From Halopseudomonas laoshanensis (GTDB taxonomy: Bacteria > Pseudomonadota > Gammaproteobacteria > Pseudomonadales > Pseudomonadaceae): a stretch of DNA of 64,000 bases. The DNA is taken from positions 124,001 through 188,000 of the forward strand of contig NZ_QOVF01000003.1 in the NCBI RefSeq assembly GCF_008365385.1, read 5' to 3'. Within the stretch, counting starts at the first letter, position 1; each line of letters begins with the position of its first letter. Under the pieces are notes generated by a model that had not been told where the DNA came from, made no database searches, and saw only the letters and a program-made list of their open reading frames with translations. Of the stretch, positions 10,019-24,134 are shown piece after piece. The position numbers and the translations under genes were made by a program.

Positions 10019-10033
10019 TTCCGCCATGCGGAA
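10019..10033. promoter_or_regulatory. Putative IclR-type operator upstream of the hydroxyacyl-CoA dehydrogenase/thiolase operon
   Basis: The site reads TTCCGC-CAT-GCGGAA, a perfect 6-3-6 palindrome, 27 bases before the start codon at 10061. A possible -10 box TACTAT (10014-10019) abuts it; I see no good -35. The same palindrome type occurs before three other catabolic operons here, next to an IclR-family gene, which supports a shared operator. Binding by that regulator is inferred. Confidence 0.65.
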
Positions 10034-10060
10034 TTGACAGGGTGAATAAGGAGTCATTGC

Positions 10061-11575
10061 ATGTTCAACCGAATTGGCGTGATCGGCGCAGGAGCCATGG
10101 GTCGCGGTATTGCCCAGTTGTTCGCCAGCAGTGGCCAGCAGGTACTGATTTACGATACCCGGGCTGAAGCGATTGATGATGCCATCGCCTTTAATCGCAA
10201 CCTGCTGCAGCGCTCGGTGGCCAAGGGCAAGCTCAGCGAAGCGGATTTTGAGGCGACCATGGCGCGCATGCAGCCGGCCGCCGAACTCGATGCATTGAAA
10301 GATTGCGATCTGGTGATTGAAGCCATCGTCGAGTTGCTCGAGGTCAAGCAGAAGCTGTTCGATCAGTTGGAAGCCATCGTGCGCGAAGACTGCGTGCTGG
10401 CGACCAACACCTCTTCCCTGTCGGTTACGCGCATTGCCAGTACCTGCAAGCGGCCCGAACGCGTTGCGGGTTTCCACTTTTTCAATCCCGTGCCGTTGAT
10501 GAAGATTGTCGAAGTGGTCCGTGGCGAGCGCACCGATGAGCGCTATGTGCAGGGGCTGGTCGAGCTGGCGGAGAACGCCGGGCATTTTGCTGCGATCACT
10601 CCGGACACCCCCGGCTTTCTGGTCAACCACGCAGGCCGCGCGTTCGGCACCGAAGCGCTGCGCATTCTCAGCGAGGGTGTGGCGACACCGCAGCAGATCG
10701 ACCGGATTCTGCGTGATGGCCCTGGCTTTCGCATGGGGCCGTTCGAGCTGTTCGACCTGACTGGCCTGGACGTGTCGCACGCGGTGATGGAGTCGGTCTA
10801 CGAGCAGTTCTACCATGACCCGCGCTACACCCCGTCCTTTATTGCCGCCCAGCGCGTGGCCGCGGGTTTGCTGGGTCGCAAGACCGGGCAGGGCTTCTAT
10901 CGGTACGAAGATGGCCAGAAGATCGAGCAGCCAGAAGCCGAACCGGAAACGGTGATCGTCAACCGGCCGTTCTGGCTGGACAGCCATGATGACGTGGTGC
11001 GCAGCAATGTATCTGCTGCCCTCTCCGCCGCTGGCGCCACACTGGAAGACACCAATATCCCCAGCCCCGAGGCGATTTGCCTGGTTGCTCCCCTGGGTGA
11101 AGACTGCACCAACAGCCTGGCGCGCCAGGCGCTGCCGGCCGAGCGCACGGTCGCGATTGACTGCTTTGCCGACTGGGACAAGCGCCGCGTGCTGATGCGC
11201 AACCCGGCCAGCAGTGCCGAGATCGTTGCCCAGGCCCGTCAGGCGCTGAGTGCCGACGGTGTGCCGGTGGAAGTAATCAACGACTCGCCCGGCTTTATTA
11301 TCCAGCGGCTGATGGCCAGCGTGGTCAACCTTGGCTGCGAGATTGCGCAGAAAGGCATCGCCACGCCGGACACGCTCGACCGTGCCATTCAACTGGCCCT
11401 GGGTTACCCCAAAGGCCCACTGGCGTTCGGCGAACATTACAAGAAGTGCAACATTCTCACCGTATTGAACAATCTGCAGGCCGTGTATGGCGAGCCGCGC
11501 TACCGTCCCAGCCCCTGGCTGCGACGCCGCGTGCAGCTTGACCTGCCGCTGACCACACCCGACATCCAGGAGTAA
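10061..11575 (+). CDS. 3-hydroxyacyl-CoA dehydrogenase, PaaH/DcaH type
   Basis: A 504-residue NAD-dependent dehydrogenase that oxidises a 3-hydroxyacyl-CoA to the 3-oxoacyl-CoA. The Rossmann motif GAGAMG is at residues 9-14. It is followed by the first C-terminal dimerisation domain (NHAGRAFGTEALR region, about 190-280) and a second such domain near 405-495 (INDSPGFIIQRLMASVVN). This one-plus-two domain layout is that of PaaH of phenylacetate and DcaH of adipate degradation, which act on 3-hydroxyadipyl-CoA. AAGGAG lies 9 bases before the ATG. The thiolase gene follows after 5 bases. The substrate being a dicarboxyl-CoA is inferred from family type and partner. Confidence 0.88.
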   Translation: MFNRIGVIGAGAMGRGIAQLFASSGQQVLIYDTRAEAIDDAIAFNRNLLQRSVAKGKLSEADFEATMARMQPAAELDALKDCDLVIEAIVELLEVKQKLFDQLEAIVREDCVLATNTSSLSVTRIASTCKRPERVAGFHFFNPVPLMKIVEVVRGERTDERYVQGLVELAENAGHFAAITPDTPGFLVNHAGRAFGTEALRILSEGVATPQQIDRILRDGPGFRMGPFELFDLTGLDVSHAVMESVYEQFYHDPRYTPSFIAAQRVAAGLLGRKTGQGFYRYEDGQKIEQPEAEPETVIVNRPFWLDSHDDVVRSNVSAALSAAGATLEDTNIPSPEAICLVAPLGEDCTNSLARQALPAERTVAIDCFADWDKRRVLMRNPASSAEIVAQARQALSADGVPVEVINDSPGFIIQRLMASVVNLGCEIAQKGIATPDTLDRAIQLALGYPKGPLAFGEHYKKCNILTVLNNLQAVYGEPRYRPSPWLRRRVQLDLPLTTPDIQE

Positions 11576-11580
11576 TTTGA

Positions 11581-12780
11581 ATGACTGCCTATATCTATGA
11601 TGGTTTGCGCTCCCCCTTTGGCCGCCACGCCGGTGCTCTGGCCAGCGTGCGCCCCGATGACCTGCTCGCTGAAGTCATGCGCGCGCTGGTTGCCCGTAAT
11701 GGTTTTGAAGGTCGGGATTACGAAGATGTGATCATGGGTTGCACCAATCAGGCGGGCGAAGATGCGCGCAATATCGCGCGTCACGCCGGCCTGCTGGCCG
11801 GGCTGCCGCAAGAAGTCGCTGGCGTGACCGTGAACCGTCTGTGCGGCTCTGGTCTGGCGGCGATTCTGGATGCCTCGCGCGCGGTGAAAACCGGCGAAGG
11901 CGAGCTGTTTGTCGCTGGCGGTGCCGAGAGCATGAGCCGCGCGCCCTTTGTGATTGCCAAGAGCGAAAGTGCCTACTCACGCGATTTCCGCGCGTTCGAC
12001 AGCACCATCGGCGCGCGCTTCCCCAACCCCAAGGTGGAAGATGAATACGGCGATGACACCATGCCGCAAACCGCCGACAACGTTGCCGCCGATCTGGGTA
12101 TTACCCGCGAACAGGCCGACACTTACGCCGCGCGCAGCCAGGCATTGTATGAAGCAGCACGTGCCGATGGTTTTTTTGCCGAAGAAATCCACCCGATTGA
12201 AGTCTCCCAGGGCCGCAAGAAGCCAGCCAAGCTGGTGGATCAGGATGAGCATCCGCGTGCAGACAGCACCCTGGAAGTGCTTTCCAACCTGCGTTCGCTG
12301 TTCAAGGATGGCGTGGTCACTGCCGGCAACGCTTCCGGCGTGAATGACGGTGCAGCCGCGTTGCTGATTGGCTCTGAAGCTATTGGCCAGAAGTACGGCA
12401 TCAAGCCGCGGGCGAAGATTCTCGCCGGCGCTGTGTCCGGTGTCGCTCCGCGGGTGATGGGCCTGGGCCCGGTTGAAGCCTGCAAAAAGGCGCTGAGCCG
12501 TGCCGGCCTGAGCCTGGATGATATGGACGTGATCGAGATCAACGAAGCCTTCGCTTCCCAGGTTCTCGGCTGCGCCAAGCAACTGGGCATTGCCTTTGAC
12601 GATCCGCGCCTGAACCCGAACGGCGGCGCGATTGCCGTCGGCCACCCGCTCGGCGCCTCCGGTGCGCGTCTGACCCTGACTGCACTGCGTCAGCTGGAGC
12701 GTACCGGTAAGCGTTATGCGCTGGTCAGTCTGTGTATTGGTTTGGGTCAGGGTGTGGCTGCGGTTATCGAGCGCGTCTGA
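11581..12780 (+). CDS. Acetyl-CoA acyltransferase (thiolase), 3-oxoadipyl-CoA thiolase-like
   Basis: A 399-residue thiolase that cleaves a 3-oxoacyl-CoA with CoA to acetyl-CoA and a shortened acyl-CoA. All active-site elements are visible: nucleophile C88 in NRLCGSG, H355 in GGAIAVGHPLGASGAR and C385 in CIGLGQG. N-terminal features (YIYDGLRSPFGRHAGAL) and the overall sequence resemble PcaF/PaaJ-type 3-oxoadipyl-CoA thiolases more than FadA. It is translationally close to the dehydrogenase gene upstream and shares its operator. If the substrate is 3-oxoadipyl- or 3-oxopimeloyl-CoA, the product would be succinyl- or glutaryl-CoA. Substrate chain length cannot be read from sequence. Confidence 0.9.
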   Translation: MTAYIYDGLRSPFGRHAGALASVRPDDLLAEVMRALVARNGFEGRDYEDVIMGCTNQAGEDARNIARHAGLLAGLPQEVAGVTVNRLCGSGLAAILDASRAVKTGEGELFVAGGAESMSRAPFVIAKSESAYSRDFRAFDSTIGARFPNPKVEDEYGDDTMPQTADNVAADLGITREQADTYAARSQALYEAARADGFFAEEIHPIEVSQGRKKPAKLVDQDEHPRADSTLEVLSNLRSLFKDGVVTAGNASGVNDGAAALLIGSEAIGQKYGIKPRAKILAGAVSGVAPRVMGLGPVEACKKALSRAGLSLDDMDVIEINEAFASQVLGCAKQLGIAFDDPRLNPNGGAIAVGHPLGASGARLTLTALRQLERTGKRYALVSLCIGLGQGVAAVIERV

Positions 12781-12803
12781 TACCTGTCTGTTTTGTTCGT
12801 AAA

Positions 12804-12828
12804 CCCTTCGCGGCCTCGCCGCGAAGGG
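12804..12828 (+). terminator. Hairpin terminator after the thiolase gene
   Basis: CCCTTCGCGG and CCGCGAAGGG form a perfect 10-bp stem around a 5-base loop, 23 bases after the thiolase stop. There is no clear T-run after it, so termination efficiency is uncertain. Confidence 0.6.
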
Positions 12829-12921
12829 CTTCAAGCACCCATCCCGCCCCACTGAACTAAGCTCCCGCCTTGTTTTCTGATAAAGTGCTCCACCACATCC
12901 ACCCGTATAGTGAATGCATCA

Positions 12922-13224
12922 ATGCAACTGAACTCCAACCCGTTTGAATGGCTCGGCGAAGCCTTTGGTACCGTCATCCGCCTGTTGGTCGATAGCCTGG
13001 CATGGATCTTTGACGTGCTCGCTGGCGCCAGCTCCGCCTTTGTAAACGGTTTCTCCCGGGCACTGGGGGTCGACAGCAATATCTTCACCGTCATCTTTGT
13101 GGTGGTTGGCCTGATCATGATTTACGCAGGGGTTCGCGCCTTCCTGCACAAACGCATTTTTGGCGGCGTCATCTGGTGCTTGCTGGGTTTATGGTTGCTT
13201 AGCGCACTGATACGCTGGAGTTGA
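12922..13224 (+). CDS. Small inner-membrane protein of unknown function
   Basis: A 100-residue protein if the ATG at 12922 is used; a GTG at 12910 would add four residues and neither has a clear Shine-Dalgarno. It has an amphipathic or hydrophobic N-terminal part (about residues 10-45) and two clear membrane segments near 53-70 and 80-97 joined by a basic turn (RAFLHKRIFGG). This layout is common among small conserved proteobacterial membrane proteins. No catalytic motif is visible. It precedes the PEBP-family gene on the same strand by 40 bases. Confidence 0.65.
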   Translation: MQLNSNPFEWLGEAFGTVIRLLVDSLAWIFDVLAGASSAFVNGFSRALGVDSNIFTVIFVVVGLIMIYAGVRAFLHKRIFGGVIWCLLGLWLLSALIRWS

Positions 13225-13264
13225 TTCCAACCGAGTTTCACCTGGACTATTCGAGGAGAACGTT

Positions 13265-13747
13265 ATGGGTTTCGCATTCAGCAATGATCTACACCTGAGC
13301 AGCAGTGCTTTCGGTAACGAAGCGGCTATCCCCAGCAAGCATACCGGCGAGGGTGAAGATGTCTCCCCGGCGCTGAGCTGGAAGAAAGCTCCCGAAGGCA
13401 CCAAAAGCTATGCCGTGGTCTGCCATGACCCGGACGCGCCGCTGATCTCTGCCAACGGCACCTACGGCTTCGTACACTGGGTGCACTACAACATTCCGGG
13501 CTCGGTTACTTCGATCTCCGAAGGCTGTGATCAGCATACCCAGGGCAAGAACAACTTTGGCAAGACCGGTTACAACGGCCCCATGCCGCCCGAAGGCCAT
13601 GGCAAGCATCAGTATTACTTCTGGGTACTGGCGCTGGACAGCGAACTGAATCTGCCGGAAGGGCTGACATTGTGGGAGCTGCTGGCAAAGGTTGAACCGC
13701 ATTGCCTGGCGATGAACCGGCTGATCGGTACTTATCAGCGCGGCTAA
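13265..13747 (+). CDS. YbhB/YbcL-family PEBP-like protein
   Basis: A 160-residue protein of the phosphatidylethanolamine-binding (Raf kinase inhibitor-like) family. The family motifs are DPDAP at residues 55-59 and GYNGPMPPEGHGKHQYYF at about 100-117, which form the anion-binding pocket. There is no signal peptide, so it is cytoplasmic, like E. coli YbhB. A GAGGAGAA Shine-Dalgarno precedes the ATG. The physiological role of bacterial members is not established. It ends before a strong bidirectional hairpin. Confidence 0.92.
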   Translation: MGFAFSNDLHLSSSAFGNEAAIPSKHTGEGEDVSPALSWKKAPEGTKSYAVVCHDPDAPLISANGTYGFVHWVHYNIPGSVTSISEGCDQHTQGKNNFGKTGYNGPMPPEGHGKHQYYFWVLALDSELNLPEGLTLWELLAKVEPHCLAMNRLIGTYQRG

Positions 13748-13772
13748 CAAAGCACCCCCAACAAAGGCTCCG

Positions 13773-13800
13773 ACCAGGCCGAGGTCCATCTCGGCCTGGT
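13773..13800. terminator. Bidirectional hairpin terminator between convergent genes
   Basis: ACCAGGCCGAG and CTCGGCCTGGT form a perfect 11-bp stem with a 6-base loop, placed in the 56-base gap between the convergent PEBP and crotonase genes. It can serve both strands, though T-runs are weak. Confidence 0.7.
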
Positions 13801-13803
13801 GAT

Positions 13804-14475
13804 TTAGCTCAGGGTCAGCAGGGGCAGTATCCGCTCACGCAGCGGTGCGTTCATGCGCTGGCGGGTTTCCCGATAGGCTGTGCGATCCAGCGCAGCCAAT
13901 TCGGCGAGCTTGATGCGGGCCTTGCCCAGCAGTTGATCAGGAGCGGCTAGCTCATCCAGAAAACCGGCTTGCAGTGCCTGCGCAGGGTCCATCGACTCGG
14001 CCTGCAGTGCGCAGCGTGACAACCATTGCGGGGTTATGCGTTCCCGGGCCAGCTCCATCGCCGCCGGTGGCATGCTCATGCCAATCGCCACTTCATTCAA
14101 GCCCGTAGTAAAGGCGCCATCAGCACCCAATCGATAATCGGCCAGCAGCAACATGAATGCCGCCTTGGCCATGCAATGACCGGTACTGGCAATCACTACA
14201 GGGGCCGGGTGATCGAGCAGCGCCAGTGTCAGCCGGTCGCCGGCGGCGCGCATGGCATCGCGTGCCGGGCCGCCCGCGTCAATCACCTTGCGATCGTAAC
14301 CGGCGCTGAAAATACCCTCGCGGCCGACAATCAGCACCGCGCAGTCGGCTTGAGCAGCTTGATCCAGCGCGGCCAGCAGATACTCGATCATCACCTGCGA
14401 CAGGGCATTGACCTTGCCGTCATTCAGCGTGATCTCGGCCATGCCATCACGGGTGGCCATGCTCAGGCCGCTCAT
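13804..14475 (-). CDS. Crotonase-fold enoyl-CoA hydratase/isomerase-like protein
   Basis: A 223-residue crotonase-superfamily protein, shorter than the usual 255-265. The acyl-CoA oxyanion-hole strands are visible: GREGIFSAGYD near residues 51-61 and GHCMAKAAFMLLLADYRLG near 97-115. The second region reads GHCMAKA instead of the common GxxxGGG, and only one of the two hydratase glutamates is obvious (NEVAIGM). The reaction may therefore be isomerisation or hydrolysis rather than hydration. Its start overlaps the ligase stop by 4 bases (ATGA), so the two are translationally coupled. PimE of the pimelate operon is a possible counterpart, by context only. Confidence 0.8.
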   Translation of the reverse strand: MSGLSMATRDGMAEITLNDGKVNALSQVMIEYLLAALDQAAQADCAVLIVGREGIFSAGYDRKVIDAGGPARDAMRAAGDRLTLALLDHPAPVVIASTGHCMAKAAFMLLLADYRLGADGAFTTGLNEVAIGMSMPPAAMELARERITPQWLSRCALQAESMDPAQALQAGFLDELAAPDQLLGKARIKLAELAALDRTAYRETRQRMNAPLRERILPLLTLS

Positions 14476-16100
14476 GAGGCCGCCCGCGCTTCGTCACGCA
14501 ATACGCGGCGTAGCAGCTTGCCTACGGTGGACTTGGGCAGATCGTCGCGGATTTCCACGGTGCTCGGTACCTTGTAACCGGTCAGATGCTCGCGGCAATG
14601 GGCGATGATCTCGGCCTGGCCCAACTTGGGATCATGCAGGCTGACGAACAGCTTGATCGACTCACCCTTCTTCTCGTCCGGCACGCCCACAGCGACGCAC
14701 TCGCGAATACCAGCGTGGCGCATGACGGCGTCTTCGACTTCATTGGGGTAGACGTTGAAACCGGAGACCAGAATCATGTCTTTCTTGCGATCAACCAGCT
14801 TGAGAAAGCCCTCTTCATCGATGACGCCAACGTCGCCGGTTTTCAGCCAGCCATCAGCGAAGGTCTCGGCCGTGGCCTCGGGGCGCTGCCAATAGCCCTG
14901 CATCACCTGTGGACCACGGATCAGCAGTTCGCCGGGCTCGCCGCGGGGCGTTTCCTGGCCATCGTCGTCGACCGTCTTCATCTCGGTATCGATTACCGCC
15001 TTGCCGATAAAGCCTTCTTTATAGGGCGTGAACGCGGTGGAAGCGACAACCACCGGCGAGGTTTCCGTCAGACCGTAGCCTTCACGCACGACACTGCCGG
15101 TACGCTCGAACCAACGCCGTGCGATCTCGGTATTCAGCGGAGCGCCGCCGGAGTTGACCCACTTGAGATGCGAGAAGTCGATGCTGTCGAAATCCGGATG
15201 CGCCATCAGCGACACGAACAACGAATTGATGCCGGTCAGCAGCGTGATCCGATGCCGCTTGAGGTCGCCGATCATGCCGTCCAGATCGCGCGGATTGGTG
15301 ATCAAAATGCTGTGGAAGCCGGTGAATACAGAGGCTATGCAGTTCGCGGTAAAAGCGAAGATATGGTACAGCGGCAGCGGCGAGACGCGGACTTCGTTGC
15401 CGTACTCCACATCCCCGGGCTTGATTACATCGACTGCCTGCAGCACGTTGCTGAGAATATTCCGGTGGCTGAGCATCGCACCCTTGGATACGCCCGTAGT
15501 GCCGCCGGTGTATTGCAGAATCGCCAGATCATCCAGGCCCTGTTCGGGGCTGACGGCCGGTTGCTGCGCGCCTTCGCGCAGGGCCAACATAAAGCGCGTG
15601 AGATCCGCCTCGTCCGACTCGAACACCGGTTGGGTCATATCGTCCATGCTGGTCACGATCAGCTTTTCAATCTGCGTCTCTGGCTGGATCTTGCGCACCA
15701 TGGGCAGCAGCTTGTCGAGCACGATCAGCGCGCGGGCGCCGGAATCGGCAAACTGATGGCGGGTTTCGAACGGCGTGTATTGCGGGTTGGTGTTGACGAT
15801 AACCAGGCCGGCTTTCAGTGCCGCAAAAATGCTGATGGTGTATTGCAGCAAGTTAGGCAGCTGGATGGCGATGCGCTCGCCCGGCTGCAAGCCGAGGGGA
15901 CCGCGCAGGTATCGCGCCAGCGCGTCCGCCTTGGCATCCAGGTCATTAAAGGAAAGGGTGTCCATGCCACAGGAGAAGGCGGGCTTGTCGGCGTAGTCCT
16001 GGCAGGCCTTGGTCAGAACATCAGCAAGGCTGGTGTGACCCAACTGCGCCAGTTGAGTGCTGACGATAGTGCCGACAGGGGAATGAGCGGGTGTTGACAT
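14472..16100 (-). CDS. AMP-forming acyl-CoA ligase, FadD/PimA-like
   Basis: A 542-residue member of the ANL adenylating family that activates a carboxylic acid to its CoA thioester using ATP. The phosphate-binding motif YTGGTTGVSKG is near residues 197-207. The hinge motif GDVGVIDEEGFLKLVDRKKD is near 420-440. The conserved C-terminal lysine region is PKSTVGKLLRR near 525. The start has AGAGG well placed. It leads a two-gene operon with the crotonase and is divergent from the IclR gene, with operator-like palindromes between them. Long- or medium-chain fatty acids and dicarboxylic acids are all possible substrates. Confidence 0.9.
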   Translation of the reverse strand: MSTPAHSPVGTIVSTQLAQLGHTSLADVLTKACQDYADKPAFSCGMDTLSFNDLDAKADALARYLRGPLGLQPGERIAIQLPNLLQYTISIFAALKAGLVIVNTNPQYTPFETRHQFADSGARALIVLDKLLPMVRKIQPETQIEKLIVTSMDDMTQPVFESDEADLTRFMLALREGAQQPAVSPEQGLDDLAILQYTGGTTGVSKGAMLSHRNILSNVLQAVDVIKPGDVEYGNEVRVSPLPLYHIFAFTANCIASVFTGFHSILITNPRDLDGMIGDLKRHRITLLTGINSLFVSLMAHPDFDSIDFSHLKWVNSGGAPLNTEIARRWFERTGSVVREGYGLTETSPVVVASTAFTPYKEGFIGKAVIDTEMKTVDDDGQETPRGEPGELLIRGPQVMQGYWQRPEATAETFADGWLKTGDVGVIDEEGFLKLVDRKKDMILVSGFNVYPNEVEDAVMRHAGIRECVAVGVPDEKKGESIKLFVSLHDPKLGQAEIIAHCREHLTGYKVPSTVEIRDDLPKSTVGKLLRRVLRDEARAAS

Positions 16101-16123
16101 GGAAACCTCTTATCGAATCATTA

Positions 16124-16138
16124 TTTTGCACAGCGGAA
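16124..16138. promoter_or_regulatory. Putative IclR-type operator, ligase side of the divergent gap
   Basis: The site reads TTTTGC-ACA-GCGGAA, with a perfect right half and two mismatches in the left half against TTCCGC-N3-GCGGAA. It is 24 bases upstream of the ligase ATG, where it could block that promoter. Confidence 0.5.
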
Positions 16139-16205
16139 TACAATACCAAAAAGATGCTATTCTATCGTCTAACGCTGTGCAATCATTGAGACAAAACTGC
16201 TTGCA

Positions 16206-16220
16206 TACCGCTATGCAGAA
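16206..16220. promoter_or_regulatory. Putative IclR-type operator, regulator side of the divergent gap
   Basis: The site reads TACCGC-TAT-GCAGAA, one mismatch in each half against the consensus. It overlaps a second inverted repeat TGCATA/TATGCA (16202-16217). Position upstream of iclR suggests autoregulation. A still weaker match (TAACGC-TGT-GC) lies near 16170. Confidence 0.4.
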
Positions 16221-16352
16221 CGGCCATATCTGCTATGGTTCTGACTCTGTGTGCAACAATAATAGACTGATGTCGAACAATAGGTTTGGAGACGTGCTGG
16301 CTCCCAAGCAAGGCCTTTGTTTCGATTGATAAGATCACAAGGTTAATGCCCC

Positions 16353-17147
16353 ATGAATGACGATCTCGAACTACTCAAGGAACCCGCTGTAGCCAAGGAC
16401 CGCAAGTTTGTCGAGGCGTTATCGCGCGGGCTGGACGTATTGCGCGCCTTCAGCCAGGGCGCGGTGGTCATGGGCAATCAGGACATCGCTCGCATCACCG
16501 GGCTGCCCAAGCCTACCGTATCGCGTATGACCTATACCCTGACCAAGCTGGGTTACCTGAGCTATTCGCCGCAGCTGGAAAAGTACCAGCTGGATTCCGG
16601 GGTGTTGGCGCTGGGCTATGCTTATGTGTCCAATCTGCGCGTGCGCCAACTGGCCAAGCCGTATATGGATGAATTCGCCCGCTCGACCAATACCTCTGTG
16701 GGCCTGACCTGCCGTGATCGTCTGTCGATGATCTACGTCGAGAACTGCCGGCCGGCGGAATCCACCTCGTTGCGTATGGATGTTGGCGTCCGCCTGCCGC
16801 TGGCCACCACCGCCGCCGGCCGCGCCTACCTGGCTGCGATGAAAGATGATGAACGCAGCCACGTGCTGGATGCCCTCGCCGCCCGCAACCCGGATAACTG
16901 GACCGAAATGCATGCACAGCTGATGGACAGTTTCGAAGACTATCGTCAGCACGGTTTCTGCCTGTCGCTGGGTAACTGGGACCGTAATGTAAACGCCGCC
17001 GGCGTACCCCTGTTTCTGCAGGACGGCACCATCATGGCCCTGACCTGCGGCGCACCCTCTTATCTGGTTTCGGAAGAGAAGGTCAAAAATCAGCTGGCGC
17101 ACCAGTTGGCCATGCTCGCTCGCGACATCGAACGCCTCGGGGTGTGA
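16353..17147 (+). CDS. IclR-family transcriptional regulator
   Basis: A 264-residue DNA-binding regulator. The winged helix-turn-helix lies at residues 20-80, with the recognition helix in GLPKPTVSRMTYTLTKLGYL (50-69). The C-terminal IclR effector domain spans about 90-260, with the family's RLPLATTAAGRAYLAAM segment. It is divergent from the ligase operon and sits between two beta-oxidation operons. Palindromes TTCCGC-N3-GCGGAA occur in its own upstream gap and before three other operons here. It is therefore the likely regulator of the whole 10-27 kb catabolic set, sensing the substrate or a CoA intermediate. That assignment is inference. Confidence 0.92.
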   Translation: MNDDLELLKEPAVAKDRKFVEALSRGLDVLRAFSQGAVVMGNQDIARITGLPKPTVSRMTYTLTKLGYLSYSPQLEKYQLDSGVLALGYAYVSNLRVRQLAKPYMDEFARSTNTSVGLTCRDRLSMIYVENCRPAESTSLRMDVGVRLPLATTAAGRAYLAAMKDDERSHVLDALAARNPDNWTEMHAQLMDSFEDYRQHGFCLSLGNWDRNVNAAGVPLFLQDGTIMALTCGAPSYLVSEEKVKNQLAHQLAMLARDIERLGV

Positions 17148-17173: not shown

Positions 17174-17244
17174 ACCATCATCTTGGCTAATCTGTATACA
17201 TTTCGCTAAAACACGGGCATCGACAACGGCTTTGTTTTTTTGTA

Positions 17245-17259
17245 TTTTGCCTAGCGGAA
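17245..17259. promoter_or_regulatory. Putative IclR-type operator, distal site before the PimF-like gene
   Basis: The site reads TTTTGC-CTA-GCGGAA. It has the same arms as the site at 16124, and lies 147 bases before the start codon at 17406. Confidence 0.5.
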
Positions 17260-17272: not shown

Positions 17273-17287
17273 TTTCGCATAGTGAAA
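17273..17287. promoter_or_regulatory. Putative IclR-type operator, proximal site before the PimF-like gene
   Basis: The site reads TTTCGC-ATA-GTGAAA, an imperfect copy of the palindrome. Its centre is 28 bases from the site at 17245, which would suit binding of two dimers. A further half-site TTTCGC is at 17201-17206. Confidence 0.45.
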
Positions 17288-17405
17288 CACCTTTTTGAAT
17301 CAGGCGTTATTTGAACAAGCCGCTGCAAACTGCTGTCGACTTATTTACAGCGTTTCATAACCCGCCAGCGGATTACTCAAAGGCGCTCACACTCGGAGAT
17401 TTAGC

Positions 17406-19499
17406 ATGTCGGACGTGGTCACACTGGAAAGACAGGGCGCCATTGCGGTCGTCAGAGTCAATAATCCACCCGTCAACGCGCTGGGCATTGCCGTGCGTGA
17501 AGGTCTTCAGGACAGCTTCAAGGCAGCCGAAGCCGATCCGCAGGTCAAGGCCATCGTGCTGGTCTGCGAGGGTTCGACCTTTATCGCCGGCGCCGACATC
17601 AAGGAATTCGGCAAGCCGCCAAAATCCCCAGGCCTGCCCGAAGTGGTCAGCGGCATCGAAGCGGGCAGCAAGCCCAGCGTCGCCGTGATCCATGGCACCG
17701 CACTGGGTGGTGGTCTGGAAGTGGCAGTCAGCTGCCATTACCGCATCGCGCTGAAAAGCGCCAAGGTCGGCCTGCCGGAAGTGAAGCTCGGCCTGTTGCC
17801 GGGTGCCGGTGGTACTCAGCGTCTGCCACGCCTGGTCGGTGTCGAGAAAGCCCTGGACATGATTGTCAGCGGCAACCCGATCAGCGCCAGCGAAGCCCTG
17901 GAACTGGGCGTGATTGATGAACTGGTTGACGGCGACCTGACCGCTGCTGGCATCGCCTTCGCCGAGAAACTGATTGCCGATGGCAAGGGTGCACGCCGCA
18001 CCGGCGAGCGCACCGACAAGCTCGATGGCATCGACAATGCCGCCCTGGTTGCCGCCAAGCGCGCCGAAGTCGAGAAGAAAACCCCTGGTTTGTTCTCGCC
18101 CCAGCGCTGCATCTCTGCTGTTGAGGCGTCCTTTACCCTGCCGCTGGAAGAAGGTCTCAAGCGCGAGCGCGAACTGTTCGGCGAGTGTCTGGTATCGCCG
18201 CAGCGCAGCGCACTGGTGCATGCCTTCTTTACCGAGCGTCTGGCGTCGAAGATCGACGATCTGCCGAAGGACACCCCGGTACGCGAGATCAATTCCGCAG
18301 CCGTTATCGGTGGCGGCACCATGGGCGTCGGTATTGCCCTGTGTTTTGCCAACGTCGGTATTCCAGTGAAGATTCTGGAAGTCAGCGACGAGGCCATGGA
18401 CAAAGCCATGGAGCGTTGCCGCGATACCTACATGATGAGCGTCAAGCGCGGCAGCCTGACCGAAGACGCGATGAACAAGCGTCTGACCCTGGTCGAAGGC
18501 GTTACCGACTATGCGGACCTGTCCGGTGTTGATCTGGTGGTCGAAGCCGTATTTGAAGAGATGGGCGTCAAGCAGAAGGTCTTTGAAGCGCTGGATACCC
18601 ATTGCAAGCCCGGCGCTATCCTGGCCAGCAACACCTCATCGCTGGACCTGAACCAGATTGCCGAGTTCACCAAGCGTCCGCAGGACGTAGTGGGCCTGCA
18701 TTTCTTCAGCCCGGCCAACGTCATGCGCCTGCTGGAAGTGGTGCGCGGCGAGAAGACTGCCAACGACGTACTGGCGACCGCCATGGCGATCGGCAAGAAG
18801 CTGAAGAAAGTGGCTGTGCCGGTGGGCGTGTGCGACGGCTTTGTCGGCAACCGCATGGTCTTCCAATACGGTCGCGAATCTGAATTCCTGCTGGAAGAAG
18901 GCGCCACCCCGGCCCAGGTCGATGGCGCGCTGCGCAAGTTCGGCATGGCTATGGGTCCTTTTGCGATGCGCGATCTGTCCGGCCTGGATATTGGCCTGAG
19001 CATCCGTACCCGCCAGCGTCAGACCCTGCCGGCCGAGTTCAAGTTGCCGACCATCCTGGACAAGATGGCTGCAGCCGGTATGCTCGGTCAGAAGACCGGC
19101 AAAGGTTTTTATGTATACGAAAAGGGTTCGCGTACCCCGCTGAACAACCCTGAACTGCCGGCCATCCTCGAGGCTGCTTCAAAAGAGCAAGGCATCGAGC
19201 GCCGTGAACTGACTGACGAGTATATTCTTGAGCGCACCTTGTTTGCGCTGATCAACGAGGGCGCGAAGATCCTCGAAGAAGGCATTGCCCAGCGCAGCAG
19301 CGATATCGACGTGATCTACATAAATGGCTACGGTTTCCCTGCCCACCAGGGTGGCCCGATGTTCTATGCTGATAGTCTTGGACTGGATCATGTTTACAAC
19401 CGGATTTGCGAATTCCACAAGCAGCACGGTGCCTGGTGGAAGCCGGCCCCATTGCTGGAAAAGCTGGCCAAGGAAGGTCGCAAGTTCGCTGATCTCTGA
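17406..19499 (+). CDS. Fused enoyl-CoA hydratase / 3-hydroxyacyl-CoA dehydrogenase, FadB/FadJ/PimF-like
   Basis: A 697-residue bifunctional enzyme of beta-oxidation. Residues 1-190 are a crotonase domain with oxyanion-hole segments (STFIAGADIKEFG near 58-70 and GTALGGGLEVAVSCHYRIA near 98-116). The NAD-binding Rossmann motif GGGTMG begins near residue 302. Two C-terminal dehydrogenase domains follow (about 480-575 and 610-695). Length and domain order match PimF of Rhodopseudomonas palustris and peroxisomal-type multifunctional enzymes. GGAG is 8 bases before the ATG. Two operator-like palindromes lie upstream, and the acyl-CoA dehydrogenase genes follow after a hairpin. Chain-length preference is unknown. 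Confidence 0.92.
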   Translation: MSDVVTLERQGAIAVVRVNNPPVNALGIAVREGLQDSFKAAEADPQVKAIVLVCEGSTFIAGADIKEFGKPPKSPGLPEVVSGIEAGSKPSVAVIHGTALGGGLEVAVSCHYRIALKSAKVGLPEVKLGLLPGAGGTQRLPRLVGVEKALDMIVSGNPISASEALELGVIDELVDGDLTAAGIAFAEKLIADGKGARRTGERTDKLDGIDNAALVAAKRAEVEKKTPGLFSPQRCISAVEASFTLPLEEGLKRERELFGECLVSPQRSALVHAFFTERLASKIDDLPKDTPVREINSAAVIGGGTMGVGIALCFANVGIPVKILEVSDEAMDKAMERCRDTYMMSVKRGSLTEDAMNKRLTLVEGVTDYADLSGVDLVVEAVFEEMGVKQKVFEALDTHCKPGAILASNTSSLDLNQIAEFTKRPQDVVGLHFFSPANVMRLLEVVRGEKTANDVLATAMAIGKKLKKVAVPVGVCDGFVGNRMVFQYGRESEFLLEEGATPAQVDGALRKFGMAMGPFAMRDLSGLDIGLSIRTRQRQTLPAEFKLPTILDKMAAAGMLGQKTGKGFYVYEKGSRTPLNNPELPAILEAASKEQGIERRELTDEYILERTLFALINEGAKILEEGIAQRSSDIDVIYINGYGFPAHQGGPMFYADSLGLDHVYNRICEFHKQHGAWWKPAPLLEKLAKEGRKFADL

Positions 19500-19522
19500 A
19501 CTTATAAGTACAGATAAAATCG

Positions 19523-19548
19523 GCCCCCGAGCACTGAGTGCCGGGGGC
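19523..19548 (+). terminator. Intercistronic hairpin between the PimF-like and PimC-like genes
   Basis: GCCCCCG and CGGGGGC enclose a second stem, GCAC-TGA-GTGC, 23 bases after the stop at 19499. There is no T-run, so it may act as a partial terminator or an mRNA-end stabiliser within one operon rather than a full stop. Confidence 0.5.
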
Positions 19549-19577
19549 TCGTATTCGCTTTATAACGAGGACCTTAC

Positions 19578-20774
19578 ATGGACATTCATTACACCCCAGA
19601 AGAACTCGCCTTCCGCGATGAAGTGCGTGAATTCCTGAAAAACGAGCTGCCGGAAGATATCGCTGCCAAGGTAAAAAATGGCAAGAACATGTCCAAGGAA
19701 GATCATCAGCGCTGGCAGAAAATTCTGTCCAAGCGCGGTTGGTACGCTCCCGGCTGGCCGGTAGAGCACGGCGGCACTACATGGGGCCCGGTCGAAAAAC
19801 ACATTTTCGATGAAGAGTCTGCCGCTTTTGGCGCGCCACGCACCATTCCATTCGGTGTGAACATGGTTGCCCCGGTAATCATCAAGTTCGGTACAGAGCA
19901 GCAGAAAGAACATTACCTGCCGCGCATCCTGTCTGGTGAAGACTGGTGGTGCCAGGGCTATTCAGAGCCCGGTGCCGGTTCCGACCTGGCCTCGCTGAAA
20001 ACCCGCGCCGTGCGCGATGGCGACCACTACATCGTCAACGGTCAGAAAACCTGGACCACACTGGGTCAGCACGCCAACTGGATTTTCTGTCTGGTGCGTA
20101 CCGATCCCGAAGCCCAGCAGCAGCGCGGTATTTCCTTCCTGCTGATCGACATGGCTACCCCGGGTATTACCGTGCGTCCGATCATCACCCTGGACGGCGA
20201 CCATGAAGTCAACGAAGTGTTCTTCGACGACGTCAAGGTACCGGTCGAGAACCTGGTAGGCGAAGAGAACAAGGGCTGGACCTGCGCCAAGTACCTGCTG
20301 ACTCACGAGCGTACTGGCCTGGCCGGCATCGGCGCGTCCAAGGCAGCGCTGACGCACCTGAAAAAGGTTGCATCCAAGCAGCAGAAGAATGGCAAGCCGC
20401 TGATCGAAGACACCCTGTTCCGCACCCAGGTAGCTGAAGTTGAAATCCAGCTGATGGCAGCCGAAATGAGCACGCTGCGTATCATCGCCGCGGCCCGTGA
20501 AGGTGGCGTACCCGGTGCCGAGAGCTCGATCCTCAAGGTCAAGGGTACCGAGATCCGTCAGGCGATCACCAACCTGCTGCGCAAGGCCGTTGGCCCTTAC
20601 GCCCTGCCCTTCCTGCCGGAAGAGCTGGAATACGATTTTGATGGCGAGATGTTGAACAGCGAGTCCAGCCCAGCGCTGGCCGGTGATTATTTCAACATGC
20701 GCAAACTGTCGATCTTCGGCGGATCCAACGAGATCCAGAAGAACATCGTCTCTAAAATGATTCTGGAACTGTAG
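19578..20774 (+). CDS. Acyl-CoA dehydrogenase, PimC-like large subunit
   Basis: A 398-residue FAD-dependent acyl-CoA dehydrogenase that introduces the alpha-beta double bond. The N-terminal helical domain begins DIHYTPEELAFRDEVREFL. The substrate/FAD signature GYSEPGAGSDLASLKT is near residues 128-143. The C-terminal FGGSNEIQKNI motif matches the family. The pairing with a second, smaller dehydrogenase gene 10 bases downstream is the arrangement of pimeloyl-CoA dehydrogenase PimC/PimD and of other heteromeric acyl-CoA dehydrogenases. Electrons would pass to EtfAB, encoded just downstream. A dicarboxyl-CoA substrate is a context-based guess. Confidence 0.88.
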   Translation: MDIHYTPEELAFRDEVREFLKNELPEDIAAKVKNGKNMSKEDHQRWQKILSKRGWYAPGWPVEHGGTTWGPVEKHIFDEESAAFGAPRTIPFGVNMVAPVIIKFGTEQQKEHYLPRILSGEDWWCQGYSEPGAGSDLASLKTRAVRDGDHYIVNGQKTWTTLGQHANWIFCLVRTDPEAQQQRGISFLLIDMATPGITVRPIITLDGDHEVNEVFFDDVKVPVENLVGEENKGWTCAKYLLTHERTGLAGIGASKAALTHLKKVASKQQKNGKPLIEDTLFRTQVAEVEIQLMAAEMSTLRIIAAAREGGVPGAESSILKVKGTEIRQAITNLLRKAVGPYALPFLPEELEYDFDGEMLNSESSPALAGDYFNMRKLSIFGGSNEIQKNIVSKMILEL

Positions 20775-20784
20775 GAGATTAGTC

Positions 20785-21918
20785 ATGGACTTTAAACTCA
20801 CAGAAGAGCAACAGATGCTGCAGGAAACTGCGGCCCGTCTGGTACGTGATACCTACACGTTCGACAAGCGTGAAAAGGCCAGCGCCAGCGACACCGGCTT
20901 CAGCCCTGAATTCTGGCAACAGATGGGTGAACTGGGCCTGACCGCGATTCCGTTCCCGGAAGAACTCGGCGGCTTCGGCGGCACTGGCGTGGAAAACATG
21001 CTGATCATGAAGGAACTGGGCCGCGGTATCTGCCTGGAGCCCTACATGGAGTCGGTGATTTTCGCCGGCGGTCTGATCACCCAGCTGGGTTCCGATACTC
21101 AGAAAGACGAGCTGCTGGCCGGTATCGCCAGCGGTGAGCTGCAGGCGGCCGTCGCTCTCGACGAGCCCAACAGCCACTATCAGCTGTCTGAAGTGCAAAC
21201 CACTGCCAAGCAGCAGGGCGACAGCTGGAGCCTGACCGGTCGCAAGGCCGTTGTTATCGGTGGCCACACCGCTGGCAAGATTCTGGTGTCTGCACGTACC
21301 GCAGGTGATCTGCGCGATCAGCAAGGCATCAGCCTGTTTATCGTTGATCCGGCCAGCACTGGCGTCACCCGCCGCAACTACGCGACCGTAGACGGTCGTA
21401 AAGCCTGCGAACTGTTCCTGGACAACGCCCAGGGCGAACTGCTGGGTCAAGCCGGCGAAGCCTTTGACGCCATCAGCTACCAGGCTGGTCGTGCCATGGC
21501 TGCACTGTGCGCTGAAGCCGTCGGCGCGATGGAAGTGGCCTGCGACATCACCCTGGACTACCTGAAGACACGCAAGCAGTTCGGCGTGCCGATCGGCAAG
21601 TTCCAGGCACTGCAGCACCGCATGGTGGATATGCGTACCGAGCTGGAGCAGGCTACTTCGATGGCCATTCTGGCTGCCTGCGTAGCTGATGAAGCCGATA
21701 ACGCTGAACGCACCCGCACCCTGACGGCGGCCAAGTTCATGATCAACCGTTGTGGCCGCAAGGTCGCCGAAGAGGCTATTCAGCTGCACGGCGGCATCGC
21801 GATGACCTGGGAATACTCCCTGGCTCACTACGCCAAGCGCCTGGTCATGATCAGCCACCAGCTGGGTGACGACGACCATCATCTGGAAGCCTACGCCAAT
21901 CAGATGAGCGTTGCCTGA
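20785..21918 (+). CDS. Acyl-CoA dehydrogenase, PimD-like small subunit
   Basis: A 377-residue acyl-CoA dehydrogenase-family protein, the presumed partner of the preceding gene. The start MDFKLTEEQQMLQETAARLV and the C-terminal signature EEAIQLHGGIAMTWEYSLAHY (near 340-360) are intact. In the middle region the usual SEPxAGSD segment is replaced by ALDEPNSHYQLSEV, as in the small subunits of heteromeric dehydrogenases, where only one chain keeps full substrate contacts. This supports a two-subunit enzyme. AGGAG-type spacing precedes the ATG. The gene ends before a strong hairpin. Confidence 0.85.
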   Translation: MDFKLTEEQQMLQETAARLVRDTYTFDKREKASASDTGFSPEFWQQMGELGLTAIPFPEELGGFGGTGVENMLIMKELGRGICLEPYMESVIFAGGLITQLGSDTQKDELLAGIASGELQAAVALDEPNSHYQLSEVQTTAKQQGDSWSLTGRKAVVIGGHTAGKILVSARTAGDLRDQQGISLFIVDPASTGVTRRNYATVDGRKACELFLDNAQGELLGQAGEAFDAISYQAGRAMAALCAEAVGAMEVACDITLDYLKTRKQFGVPIGKFQALQHRMVDMRTELEQATSMAILAACVADEADNAERTRTLTAAKFMINRCGRKVAEEAIQLHGGIAMTWEYSLAHYAKRLVMISHQLGDDDHHLEAYANQMSVA

Positions 21919-21931
21919 TAGCTTCAACTCG

Positions 21932-21961
21932 CGGAATAACGGCAAATTAGCCGTTATTCCG
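21932..21961 (+). terminator. Hairpin terminator after the acyl-CoA dehydrogenase operon
   Basis: CGGAATAACGGC (21932-21943) and GCCGTTATTCCG (21950-21961) form a 12-bp perfect stem around AAATTA, 13 bases after the stop codon. It separates this operon from etfBA. Confidence 0.7.
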
Positions 21962-21980
21962 GCACTTATGCCGTCACATA

Positions 21981-22008
21981 TTGCACATAGGTACTAGATA
22001 GGTACTAT
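21981..22008 (+). promoter_or_regulatory. Candidate sigma-70 promoter of etfBA with tandem 11-bp repeats
   Basis: A -35-like TTGCAC (21981-21986) is followed after 16 bases by a -10-like TACTAT (22003-22008), 85 bases before the etfB ATG. Two direct 11-bp repeats ATAGGTACTA(G/T) fill 21987-21997 and 21998-22008, each with a GTAC core, which could be a regulator site spaced by one helical turn. I do not recognise the regulator. Confidence 0.5.
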
Positions 22009-22093
22009 CGGCCAGGGTTCAGGCTCGGTATCCTATGGCACCCCTTTCGAGCGCCCTTGCGGGCGTCCTACAGACTTTGGAGGACTAGCGTCC

Positions 22094-22843
22094 ATGAAAA
22101 TCCTCGTCGCCGTTAAGCGCGTGGTCGATTACAACGTCAAGGTTCGCGTCAAAGCGGACAATTCCGGTGTCGATCTCGCCAACGTCAAGATGTCCATGAA
22201 CCCCTTCTGCGAAATCGCCGTGGAAGAGGCCGTGCGCCTGAAAGAAAAAGGCGTTGCGACTGAAGTGATCGCCGTTTCCGTCGGCCCCGTAGCCGCCCAG
22301 GAACAACTGCGTACTGCACTGGCTCTGGGTGCTGACCGCGCCATTCTGGTCGAGTCCGCCGATGACTTGAGCTCGCTGGCCATTGCCAAGCTGCTCAAGG
22401 CCGTTGTCGATAAAGAACAGCCCCAGCTAGTCATTCTCGGCAAGCAGGCTATCGATTCCGACAACAACCAGACCGGCCAGATGCTGGCTGCGCTGAGCGG
22501 CTACGGCCAGGGCACCTTCGCCTCTGCTGTGGAAGTCTCCGGCGAGAGCGTCAAGGTCACCCGTGAAATCGACGGCGGCCTGCAGACGGTTGACCTGAAA
22601 CTGCCAGCGATCGTCACCACCGACCTGCGCCTGAACGAGCCGCGCTATGCGTCGCTGCCGAACATCATGAAGGCCAAGAAAAAGCCGATGGAAAACCTCA
22701 AGCCGGAAGATCTCGGCGTGAGCGTCTCTTCTACCGTCAAGACCATCAAGGTCGAAGCGCCGGCTGCCCGCAGCGCGGGTATCAAGGTCAAGAGCGTCGA
22801 CGAGCTGGTCGACAAACTCAAGAACGAAGCCAAGGTGATCTGA
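22094..22843 (+). CDS. etfB: Electron transfer flavoprotein beta subunit
   Basis: EtfB (249 residues) pairs with EtfA to carry electrons from acyl-CoA dehydrogenases to ETF-ubiquinone oxidoreductase. The start [19 protein letters not shown] and the AMP-binding fold segments ([18 protein letters not shown] and [18 protein letters not shown]) are typical. A TTGGAGG Shine-Dalgarno precedes the ATG. The etfA ATG follows one base after its stop, so the pair is coupled. Pseudomonads usually have one housekeeping etfBA; its position next to the PimC/D-like genes fits its role as their electron acceptor. Confidence 0.96.
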
Positions 22844-22844
22844 G

Positions 22845-23774
22845 ATGACGATTCTAGTTATTGCTGAACACAACAACGCCGAACTGAATGCCGCGACGCT
22901 GAACACCCTGGCTGCTGCCAAAGCGATCGGTGGTGATATCGACGTACTGGTCGCTGGCGAAGGCTGCTCTGCAGTCGCTGATCAAGTGGCCAAGGCCGAA
23001 GGCGTAACCAAGGTGCTGCTGGCGGATAACGCTGCCTACGGCCACCAGTTGCCGGAAAACCTGGCACTGCTGATTGCTGAAGTTGGCAAGAGCCACAGCC
23101 ACATCCTCTGTGCTGCCAGCACCAACGGCAAGAACTACGGCCCGCGCGTCGCTGCACTACTGGACGTGGATCAGATCTCCGAGATCATTGCGGTCGATAG
23201 CGCTGATACCTTCAAGCGTCCGATCTATGCCGGTAACGCGATTGCCACCGTGCAGTCCAGCGCTGCGGTCAAGGTCATCACTGTACGCGCCACCGGCTTT
23301 GACGCCGTTGCAGCCGAAGGCGGCAGCGCCAGCGTCGAGGCGGTTTCCAGCGTCCAGGACGCCGGTGTATCGAGCTTTGTTGGCGAAGAGCTGGCCAAGT
23401 CCGACCGTCCTGAACTGGCCGGTGCCAAGATCGTGATCTCCGGCGGCCGTGGCATGCAGAACGGTGACAACTTTAAGCACCTGTACTCGCTGGCCGACAA
23501 GCTTGGCGCGGCTGTAGGCGCTTCGCGTGCCGCGGTTGACGCAGGCTTTGTGCCCAACGACATGCAGGTCGGTCAGACCGGCAAGATCGTTGCGCCGAAC
23601 CTGTATATCGCTGTCGGCATTTCCGGTGCGATTCAGCACTTGGCCGGTATGAAAGACTCCAAAGTGATCGTCGCGATCAACAAGGACGAAGAAGCGCCGA
23701 TCTTCTCGGTAGCCGATTACGGTCTGGTTGCGGATCTGTTTGAAGCGATTCCGGAGTTGGAAAGCAAGGTGTAA
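22845..23774 (+). CDS. etfA: Electron transfer flavoprotein alpha subunit
   Basis: EtfA (309 residues) holds the FAD of the heterodimer. The C-terminal FAD domain shows [13 protein letters not shown] near residue 200 and [20 protein letters not shown] near 226-245. The PROSITE-type ETF-alpha region follows near 260-295 ([17 protein letters not shown]). Length is normal. It is followed by a strong intrinsic terminator, which closes the etfBA unit before the transporter genes. Confidence 0.96.
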
Positions 23775-23801
23775 TAGCCGCTTTACGCTAAACGCCTTAG
23801 G

Positions 23802-23833
23802 AAAACCCCGGTTCGCGAGAGCCGGGGTTTTTT
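23802..23833 (+). terminator. Intrinsic terminator of etfBA
   Basis: AAAACCCCGG pairs with CCGGGGTTTT around a 10-base loop and runs into six T residues (23828-23833), 28 bases after the etfA stop. This is a textbook rho-independent terminator. Confidence 0.9.
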
Positions 23834-23871
23834 ATTGGGCTTTTGGGAAGTCAAAGTCACAGTCAAAATGG

Positions 23872-23891
23872 ATTCCCGCCTGCGCGGGAAT
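23872..23891. repeat. Short dRS3-like extragenic inverted repeat
   Basis: ATTCCCGC-CTGC-GCGGGAAT, followed by GACG, is an 8-bp perfect stem in the 377-base gap between etfA and the TAXI gene. This motif type is dispersed in many proteobacterial genomes. The rest of the gap holds the etfA terminator, an AT-rich stretch (about 23935-24085), and the transporter promoter and operators; I see no gene in it. Confidence 0.55.
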
Positions 23892-24056
23892 GACGAGGTA
23901 TTGCGGCGTGACGGAGTCTGTATTTACCGCAACTGTGTAAAAGTGCGCTTCGCAATACTGTACATCCAGAAGCCCTGAATGCCGTTATACGCAACAATCT
24001 GTATCATTTATTGTCATTTTATGCCGCCATATTAACCTTTCATTACCTCAAGTCTT

Positions 24057-24084
24057 TTGCAATGTGTCTCACGCAAAGTAAAAT
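24057..24084 (+). promoter_or_regulatory. Candidate sigma-70 promoter of the TAXI-TRAP genes
   Basis: TTGCAA (24057-24062) and TAAAAT (24079-24084) are separated by 16 bases. Transcription would start near 24091, directly over the first operator-like site. Confidence 0.45.
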
Positions 24085-24088
24085 GCCA

Positions 24089-24103
24089 TTCTGATTAGCG
24101 AAA
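24089..24103. promoter_or_regulatory. Putative IclR-type operator, distal site before TAXI gene
   Basis: The site reads TTCTGA-TTA-GCGAAA, a degenerate copy of TTCCGC-N3-GCGGAA, 31 bases centre to centre from the perfect copy at 24120. Confidence 0.4.
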
Positions 24104-24119
24104 CATAAATACAATAATG

Positions 24120-24134
24120 TTCCGCACAGCGGAA
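24120..24134. promoter_or_regulatory. Putative IclR-type operator, proximal site before TAXI gene
   Basis: The site reads TTCCGC-ACA-GCGGAA, with both halves perfect, 17 bases before the TAXI start codon. It would lie in the 5' untranslated region of the transporter mRNA, a position suited to repression. Confidence 0.65.

Follow-up and report, generated by a model that had tools for sequence, protein, structure and literature searches.

Known regulators and operators

The pim operon of Rhodopseudomonas palustris consists of pimFABCDE and has a regulator of the MarR family, and the dca genes of Acinetobacter baylyi have an IclR-type regulator, DcaR, on which a literature search turned up no paper. 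These systems are compared here with a 64,000-nucleotide stretch of the genome of Halopseudomonas laoshanensis (assembly GCF_008365385.1, contig NZ_QOVF01000003.1, positions 124,001 to 188,000; hereafter the window, numbered from its first letter), in which seven copies of the palindrome TTCCGC-N3-GCGGAA lie around a gene for an IclR-family regulator and genes for apparent uptake, activation with coenzyme A (CoA) and beta-oxidation of an organic acid. Judged from sequence, the palindrome is very probably the binding site of this regulator, and the uptake and breakdown of the acid, probably dicarboxylic, appear to be under its control as one unit, which would be a well-supported new example of a known control type. 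No description of this regulon was found among the titles and abstract openings of the open-licence PMC literature.

The dcaAKIJP genes of A. baylyi are treated in passages of PMC10870600 and PMC12543098. For IclR proteins in general, the relevant passages of Suvorova and Gelfand (2021; PMC8222616) describe a group 1 motif whose subgroup WTT-11-AAW has the consensus WTTYCRYW3RYGRAAW. These passages record three-box sites, among them the operators of PcaU and PobR, and tandem sites, whose centres are mainly 18-22 bp (about two turns) and less often three or four turns apart. An alternative mode of dimerisation of IclR proteins is also proposed there.

Palindromic sites in the window

The first-pass annotation of this DNA had claimed two perfect and five degenerate palindromes, all intergenic and near starts, and a scan of the window reproduced each of them. 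The palindrome occurs with no mismatch only at 10019 and 24120, with two mismatches at 16124, 16206 and 17245, and with three at 17273 and 24089. All seven copies lie between open reading frames (ORFs) with family matches, before the paaH, ligase, PimF-like and TAXI operons and in the gap upstream of iclR. Relative to the ORF starts, their centres are at -35 (paaH), -31 (ligase), -222 and -140 (iclR), -154 and -126 (PimF-like), and -56 and -25 (TAXI). The regulator gene, the sites and the genes that follow them are:

16353-17147, plus strand: IclR-family regulator (P0001); HTH_IclR 62.2 bits (cut-off 22), IclR_C 92.9 bits (cut-off 24)
10008-10015, no strand: third half-site (ACGAAATA) of the paaH operator; RYGRAAWA matched at at least 7 of 8 positions in 22 of 22 Halopseudomonas-group paaH promoters
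10019-10033, no strand: perfect palindromic operator (predicted) of the paaH-like/thiolase operon; conserved in 22 of 22 loci
16124-16138, no strand: predicted ligase operator, within the ligase/iclR gap; such gaps contain a matrix site scoring at least 20 bits in 28 of 28 cases
16206-16220, no strand: second, weaker predicted operator in the ligase/iclR gap; a second site above 15 bits in 11 of 28 loci
17245-17259, no strand: upstream predicted operator of the PimF-like operon; overlaps the predicted -10
17273-17287, no strand: downstream predicted operator of the PimF-like operon, centre 28 bp further on; of 27 loci, 21 have two sites above 15 bits and six have one
24089-24103, no strand: upstream predicted operator of TAXI-TRAP, at the predicted start site
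24120-24134, no strand: downstream predicted operator of TAXI-TRAP, an exact palindrome, centre 31 bp further on
10061-11575, plus strand: PaaH-like 3-hydroxyacyl-CoA dehydrogenase (paaH); Pfam 3HCDH_N/3HCDH, NF006124 over its cut-off, TIGR02279 (PaaH) below
11581-12780, plus strand: 3-oxoadipyl-CoA thiolase; NF006001 at 707.6 bits, over its cut-off of 622
13804-14475, minus strand: enoyl-CoA hydratase family protein, after the ligase gene; family matches
14472-16100, minus strand: AMP-forming acyl-CoA ligase; PF00501/PF13193
17406-19499, plus strand: PimF/FadJ-like enoyl-CoA hydratase/3-hydroxyacyl-CoA dehydrogenase; family matches
19578-20774, plus strand: PimC-like acyl-CoA dehydrogenase; best match TIGR03204 at 502.5 bits, below its cut-off of 623.85
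20785-21918, plus strand: PimD-like acyl-CoA dehydrogenase; best match TIGR03203 at 354.3 bits, below its cut-off of 652.7
24152-25318, plus strand: TAXI-family TRAP solute-binding protein; TIGR02122 at 151.5 bits, over its cut-off of 84.35
25394-27337, plus strand: fused TRAP permease; TIGR02123 at 561.5 bits, over its cut-off of 320.65

The earlier claim of four marked catabolic promoters is borne out by sites before all four, with the refinement that the two sites in the ligase/iclR gap probably mark iclR's own promoter as well. A single IclR regulon spread over about 14 kb had also been proposed; conservation of the sites and their co-occurrence with iclR support it, and the PEBP gene and the ETF genes (etfBA), which also lie in the interval, have no site in front of them.

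Short palindromes of this kind could in principle arise by chance in AT-rich intergenic DNA. With up to three mismatches the pattern occurs 56 times in the window against a mean of 46.28 (standard deviation 8.07) in shuffled sequence, and 56 was reached by 10 of 100 shuffles. The plain count is thus not above chance, and the case rests on the placement of the sites and on their inheritance as seen by footprinting. A relaxed palindrome, TTYYRC-N3-GYRRAA, occurs 14 times genome-wide, against nine for the pattern written backwards. A survey of dyad spacings is mildly informative: among five-of-six dyads a spacer of 3 is the commonest in promoter gaps (10.77 per kb, against 6.84 per kb in control gaps), but among exact dyads in promoter gaps a spacer of 5 (1.11) stands slightly above a spacer of 3 (1.01). 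These figures are what a chance origin has in its favour. It is contradicted by footprinting: all 79 orthologous promoter gaps contain a site, and sites are kept in other genera and also at promoters away from iclR. A chance origin is now extremely improbable.

The 4.1-Mb genome itself was surveyed by pattern searches, one of which covered 50 of 53 places, and the statements that follow hold among the matches listed. The perfect palindrome occurs three times, twice in this locus and once (C9:559574) within an ORF of 425 codons. Of the 14 relaxed palindromes, five fall within this 14-kb stretch, which makes up 0.34% of the genome (a chance of about 1e-9 by our own arithmetic); eight of the other nine lie inside ORFs of at least 110 codons, and one (C9:864232, 9.0 bits) lies outside any ORF of that size. 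The best matrix match fetched from outside the cluster (22.0 bits) is in an ORF that by eye is deaminase-like, the others scoring at most 19.1, and all eight of the stronger ones whose context was inspected are inside ORFs, although an ORF over a match is no proof of a gene. The pattern-based genome scan thus came out as the first-pass annotation would have it.

Conservation of the sites

Loci encoding relatives of the IclR protein were collected for footprinting (80 fetched of 133 confirmed), and the gap counts cover the window together with those of L019-L045 that hold both flanking genes. A Halopseudomonas-group matrix was built from 61 sites (43 unique) that include the window's own, which makes its counts circular. 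With that matrix the seven sites score 17.8-26.9 bits in the window, the next place scoring 11.8, and sites of at least 20 bits are present in 22 of 22 paaH, 28 of 28 ligase/iclR, 27 of 27 PimF-like and 2 of 2 TAXI gaps, with none of at least 12 bits in 103 control gaps. Because of this circularity, an independent matrix was made from nine unique sites in 10 of 83 regions of L046-L098, none in a record named Halopseudomonas, the training regions having at most one mismatch to the published consensus with W3 relaxed to N3.

The independent matrix ranks the seven sites 1 to 5, 7 and 8 within the 64-kb window. Its scores for four of them are above the highest reached in 100 window shuffles (20.7), and shuffled windows contain on average 0.25 places (at most one) at the level of the 24089 site. 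When applied to orthologous upstream regions, as the first-pass annotation had proposed, it finds a site of at least 12 bits in every one of the 79 promoter gaps, against one of 103 controls. Of the control gaps, 89 are long enough for a site; the rest are shorter than 19 bases (MutM, 13 of 17; PEBP/ech, 1 of 20). Sites with at most two mismatches to the strict palindrome are found in 22 of 22 paaH, 19 of 28 ligase/iclR, 8 of 27 iclR/pimF and 2 of 2 etfA/taxi gaps and in none of the 103 controls; the lower counts at ligase/iclR and iclR/pimF show that many of the sites there are degenerate. At this level no site was found in any locus examined before the PEBP gene, before etfBA, between PEBP and ech, or between the PimF-like gene and the first dehydrogenase gene.

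The sixth-ranked place in the window, at 41544-41558 (18.1 bits), is a degenerate palindrome probably upstream of a fasciclin-like gene. Its right arm is broken and it was provisionally taken as noise.

Co-occurrence with the regulator gene

By sequence, the best relative of the regulator in the PDB is 5whm, and the protein is 97% identical to that of H. pelagia CL-AP6, which makes the host probably a near relative of H. pelagia. Among 148 genomes of the family, a regulator at least 74% identical is present in 48, and the same 48 contain a PimF-like gene at least 67% identical. Two other genera in this survey are labelled g8 and g15, the latter looking like Stutzerimonas. In g15, 15 genomes have the regulator and 13 of these have paaH at threshold; all 13 paaH promoters contain a site, scoring 22.0-28.3 bits. 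In six of the 13 genomes iclR is on a different contig, in six it is at least 199 kb away and in one (G143) 4 kb away. In g8, the iclR gap of all 14 genomes with the regulator contains a site (21.3-25.5 bits) some 155 bp upstream of iclR. Of 29 PimF-like promoters in g8 and g15, 20 were fetched, and each has a site, scoring 25.6-25.9 bits. Within the host's own genus, a close TAXI orthologue (at least 78%) occurs in 12 of 37 genomes and is preceded in all 12 by a tandem pair 30-31 bp apart, each site scoring at least 14.1 bits; TAXI is on a different contig from iclR in G105 and G066. None of three distant TAXI homologues (42-43%) has the tandem pair, and one of them has a single site of 13.9 bits.

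The motif thus tracks the regulator gene into other genera, including promoters away from iclR, and was not found around paaH where the gene is absent. Eight paaH copies (64-68% identical) in seven genomes lacking a close IclR relative reach at best -0.7 bits in the 500 bp upstream and 9.9 bits in the surrounding 4.5-14 kb. One of the seven (G028) has a 40% IclR homologue, and the survey left out the second paaH copy of G043 (130 bp only) and paaH copies about 50% identical. The view of 500 bp before paaH gives 0 of 14 even in the g8 genomes that have the regulator, and wider regions and iclR gaps were therefore compared as well; this wider control strengthened the link between sites and regulator. 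The sites exist, are conserved and are inherited together with the regulator gene.

Several observations weigh against the assignment of the sites to this regulator or against a fixed regulon. The g8 genomes with the regulator have no site in the 500 bp before paaH (0 of 14). However, in the one g8 locus that was taken apart (L205), the site in the iclR gap starts 38 bp upstream of a ligase gene (60% identity to that of the window) that is followed on the same strand by paaH, and transcription of paaH in g8 is for this reason probably from the ligase promoter. Of 51 loci outside Halopseudomonas with enough sequence, 45 have a site of at least 12 bits in the 400 bp before iclR and six do not, and only 10 of 83 regions tested outside that genus come within one mismatch of the published consensus. 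The PimF-like genes of Marinobacter (55-59%) that lie beside iclR have only weak sites of about 10 bits. Presence of the regulator was checked in 5 of the 12 genomes with close TAXI orthologues, and a TAXI homologue at threshold is found in only 15 of the 37 genus genomes, 12 of them close, so that TAXI uptake is no fixed part of the system.

The sites might instead be bound by a different regulator, either another IclR-family protein or one outside the family. HTH_IclR has four matches in the genome: the focal gene, an IclR-like ORF of 264 codons and an AsnC-like ORF of 162 codons (both classed by eye), and a partial match of 28 residues. There is thus one other likely member of the family (at 442 kb on contig C1), and DNA binding by the focal protein is itself only a prediction. 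Against this, the sites and the focal gene occur together across genera while paaH regions lacking the gene have no sites, the focal gene's own upstream gap contains sites in 28 of 28 Halopseudomonas-group loci and 14 of 14 g8 genomes, and the 3.1 kb surrounding the other gene (L115) yielded no site (best 0.7 bits). A different regulator is therefore highly improbable, and the seven sites are very probably operators of the IclR protein encoded at 16353-17147.

Operator class and a third half-site

The strong sites fit closely the WTT-11-AAW class. The sequence at 10018-10034, ATTCCGCCATGCGGAAT, departs from WTTYCRYW3RYGRAAW at one central base only, and 24119-24135 differs from it at two positions, the first base and one in the centre; mismatches are more numerous in the weaker sites. 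A three-box arrangement (an extra half-site of alternating direction beside a palindrome) is seen at paaH only. There the third half-site is of the right type and at the same offset in 22 of 22 promoters, although it lies inside a generally conserved stretch and the count has no shuffle control. In g15 a YGRAAT box is seen by eye at the same offset in 13 of 13 paaH promoters, despite differing surroundings. At the ligase and PimF-like promoters, extra half-sites noted by eye are no more than suggestive. With its conserved three boxes, the paaH operator would make a natural test case for the alternative IclR dimerisation put forward in the passages cited from PMC8222616.

Genes under the sites and the probable substrate

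The PimCD-like dehydrogenases together with the 3-oxoadipyl-CoA thiolase suggest that the substrate is a dicarboxylate, which is probable, with a medium-chain dicarboxylate as the best guess. Less probable substrates, for a regulon that would be real all the same, are medium-chain fatty acids and branched or alicyclic acids. To our knowledge, the substrates of TAXI-TRAP transporters are poorly known, which leaves room for such an acid. The ligase scores best against long-chain fatty-acid ligase models, higher than against PimA, and the PimC, PimD, PimA and PaaH models were all matched below their cut-offs; these scores count against a dicarboxylate. In its favour are the thiolase, which is over its model's cut-off, the PimC and PimD models as the best matches of the two dehydrogenases, and a PimCD-like pair in Ralstonia that, according to PMC12543098, shows strong fitness defects on diacids of C8, C9, C10 and C12, if the window's pair is taken, as assumed here, to be orthologous.

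Predicted promoters and mode of control

Two of the operons have predicted sigma-70 promoters:

17220-17248, plus strand: TCGACA-N17-TATTTT, PimF-like operon; both hexamers kept in the aligned promoters
24057-24084, plus strand: TTGCAA-N16-TAAAAT, TAXI-TRAP operon; conserved hexamers

A promoter scan found eight overall, against 5.2 (standard deviation 2.4) in shuffles, and the hexamers gain their weight from conservation, not from this count. In the TAXI promoters, TTGCA(A/T) and TA(A/G)AAT are kept in 11 of 12, and by eye also in the twelfth (L193) when it is read in the correct orientation. Both TAXI sites lie downstream of the conserved predicted promoter, and the first PimF-like site lies over the predicted -10.

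Repression that is relieved by an inducer is the likeliest mode of control. Occlusion is preferred because the operators fall on or just after predicted promoters and the paaH and ligase sites are 35 and 31 bp before the ATG. The same regulator could, using the same sites, act mainly as an activator or in both ways, in the manner of PcaU and PcaR. Some relatives such as PcaU do activate, and TIGR02431, the PcaR/PcaU/PobR subfamily, is the best NCBIfam match of the regulator, with a score of 140.2 bits that is below the cut-off of 284.75. The 16124 and 16206 sites are far upstream of iclR, and PMC12543098 states, in the passage concerned, that the IclR family can activate, repress or do both. 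Activation, the chief alternative, is nevertheless unlikely, since sites centred 35 and 31 bp before the paaH and ligase start codons, and TAXI sites that are both downstream of the predicted promoter, leave little room for RNA polymerase downstream.

Under repression, the system might work as follows. Without inducer, RNA polymerase would be blocked by IclR dimers bound at the promoters or immediately downstream of them, in the case of the PimF-like and TAXI promoters probably as pairs on the tandem sites. The inducer, probably a medium-chain dicarboxylate or its CoA ester, would free IclR from the DNA. Release would turn on the genes for uptake (TAXI-TRAP), for CoA activation (ligase and hydratase), for the first oxidation (PimF-like enzyme and PimCD-like dehydrogenases) and for the final steps (PaaH-like dehydrogenase and 3-oxoadipyl-CoA thiolase), and iclR itself would probably be switched on too. 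Binding, repression and the arrangement of dimers are inferred here, and the substrate and effector are the least certain part of the model.

Uptake modules and neighbouring genes

Divergent from paaH are two possible further members, with weak sites in Marinobacter:

9339-9773, minus strand: thioesterase
7985-9364, minus strand: membrane protein (P0002)

In Halopseudomonas the gene at 7985-9364 is kept next to paaH. Its homologue in Marinobacter is a neighbour of iclR and is preceded by weak operator-like sites (10.4-16.7 bits), 30-81 bp upstream, in 14 of the 15 loci that contain it. Searches with the 459-residue protein gave no match in Pfam, in NCBIfam or, by sequence profile, in the PDB. 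A predicted model (mean predicted local distance difference test score 87.3) gives 27 Foldseek matches at E of at most 0.001, the best at 2.1e-6, among them TRAP membrane subunits, INDY-type dicarboxylate carriers, NaS1, Pho90, ArsB and YdaH, with TM-scores of about 0.4-0.57 by query length and root-mean-square deviations of 6.7-14.8. In the model this resemblance is one of fold only, with no function implied, and the Pfam-orphan protein is a lead to an uncharacterised transporter family.

Elsewhere the uptake gene appears to differ. A carrier of the MFS is the operator-linked gene in three loci examined, those of Stutzerimonas stutzeri KOS6 (L056:12663-14009), Pseudomonas mangrovi (L068:11091-12431) and a g15 genome (L207:6916-8319), and no TAXI-TRAP was mapped in them. 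In four relatives (L027, L030, L032 and L033) etfA is followed, among the mapped genes, directly by a putative PF04199 cyclase without an intervening TAXI-TRAP, so that the transporter looks gained or lost there. In the window a putative cyclase of this family (PF04199) occupies 27393-28559 on the minus strand, convergent with the TRAP permease. A tentative view is that acid catabolism in Halopseudomonas, Stutzerimonas, g8 and Marinobacter has stayed under a single IclR operator system, with the uptake module beneath it exchanged (TAXI-TRAP in some Halopseudomonas, MFS in Stutzerimonas-type loci, and the Pfam-orphan carrier with a TRAP/INDY-like fold in Marinobacter and beside paaH), with the third box allowing two dimer geometries on natural DNA.

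Further along the window, 29555-31444 (plus strand) encodes a PAAR-motif protein with a Tle1-like phospholipase domain, likely a type VI secretion effector.

Comparison with known systems

For what appears to be use of dicarboxylates by Halopseudomonas and Stutzerimonas, the locus provides a testable regulator and operator set. The set is a candidate biosensor and is relevant to growth on polyester monomers such as adipate. The PimF-like and PimC/PimD-like genes of the locus recall the pim operon of R. palustris, from which it differs in Pim scores that stay below the cut-offs and in TAXI-TRAP uptake. With the dca genes of A. baylyi it shares dicarboxylate uptake, as predicted here, and beta-oxidation, whereas uptake there is by DcaK/DcaP and activation by DcaIJ, in place of the TRAP transporter and ligase found here. 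The beta-ketoadipate regulators PcaU, PcaR and PobR resemble the present one in having a three-box operator and a pathway that ends in 3-oxoadipyl-CoA; unlike them, the regulator described here falls below the subfamily cut-off and is likely a repressor. The operators share with the WTT-11-AAW class, as set out in the cited passages of PMC8222616, their arms, 3-base spacer and tandem and three-box forms, but their tandem centres are 28 and 31 bp apart, about three turns, where those passages give mainly 18-22.

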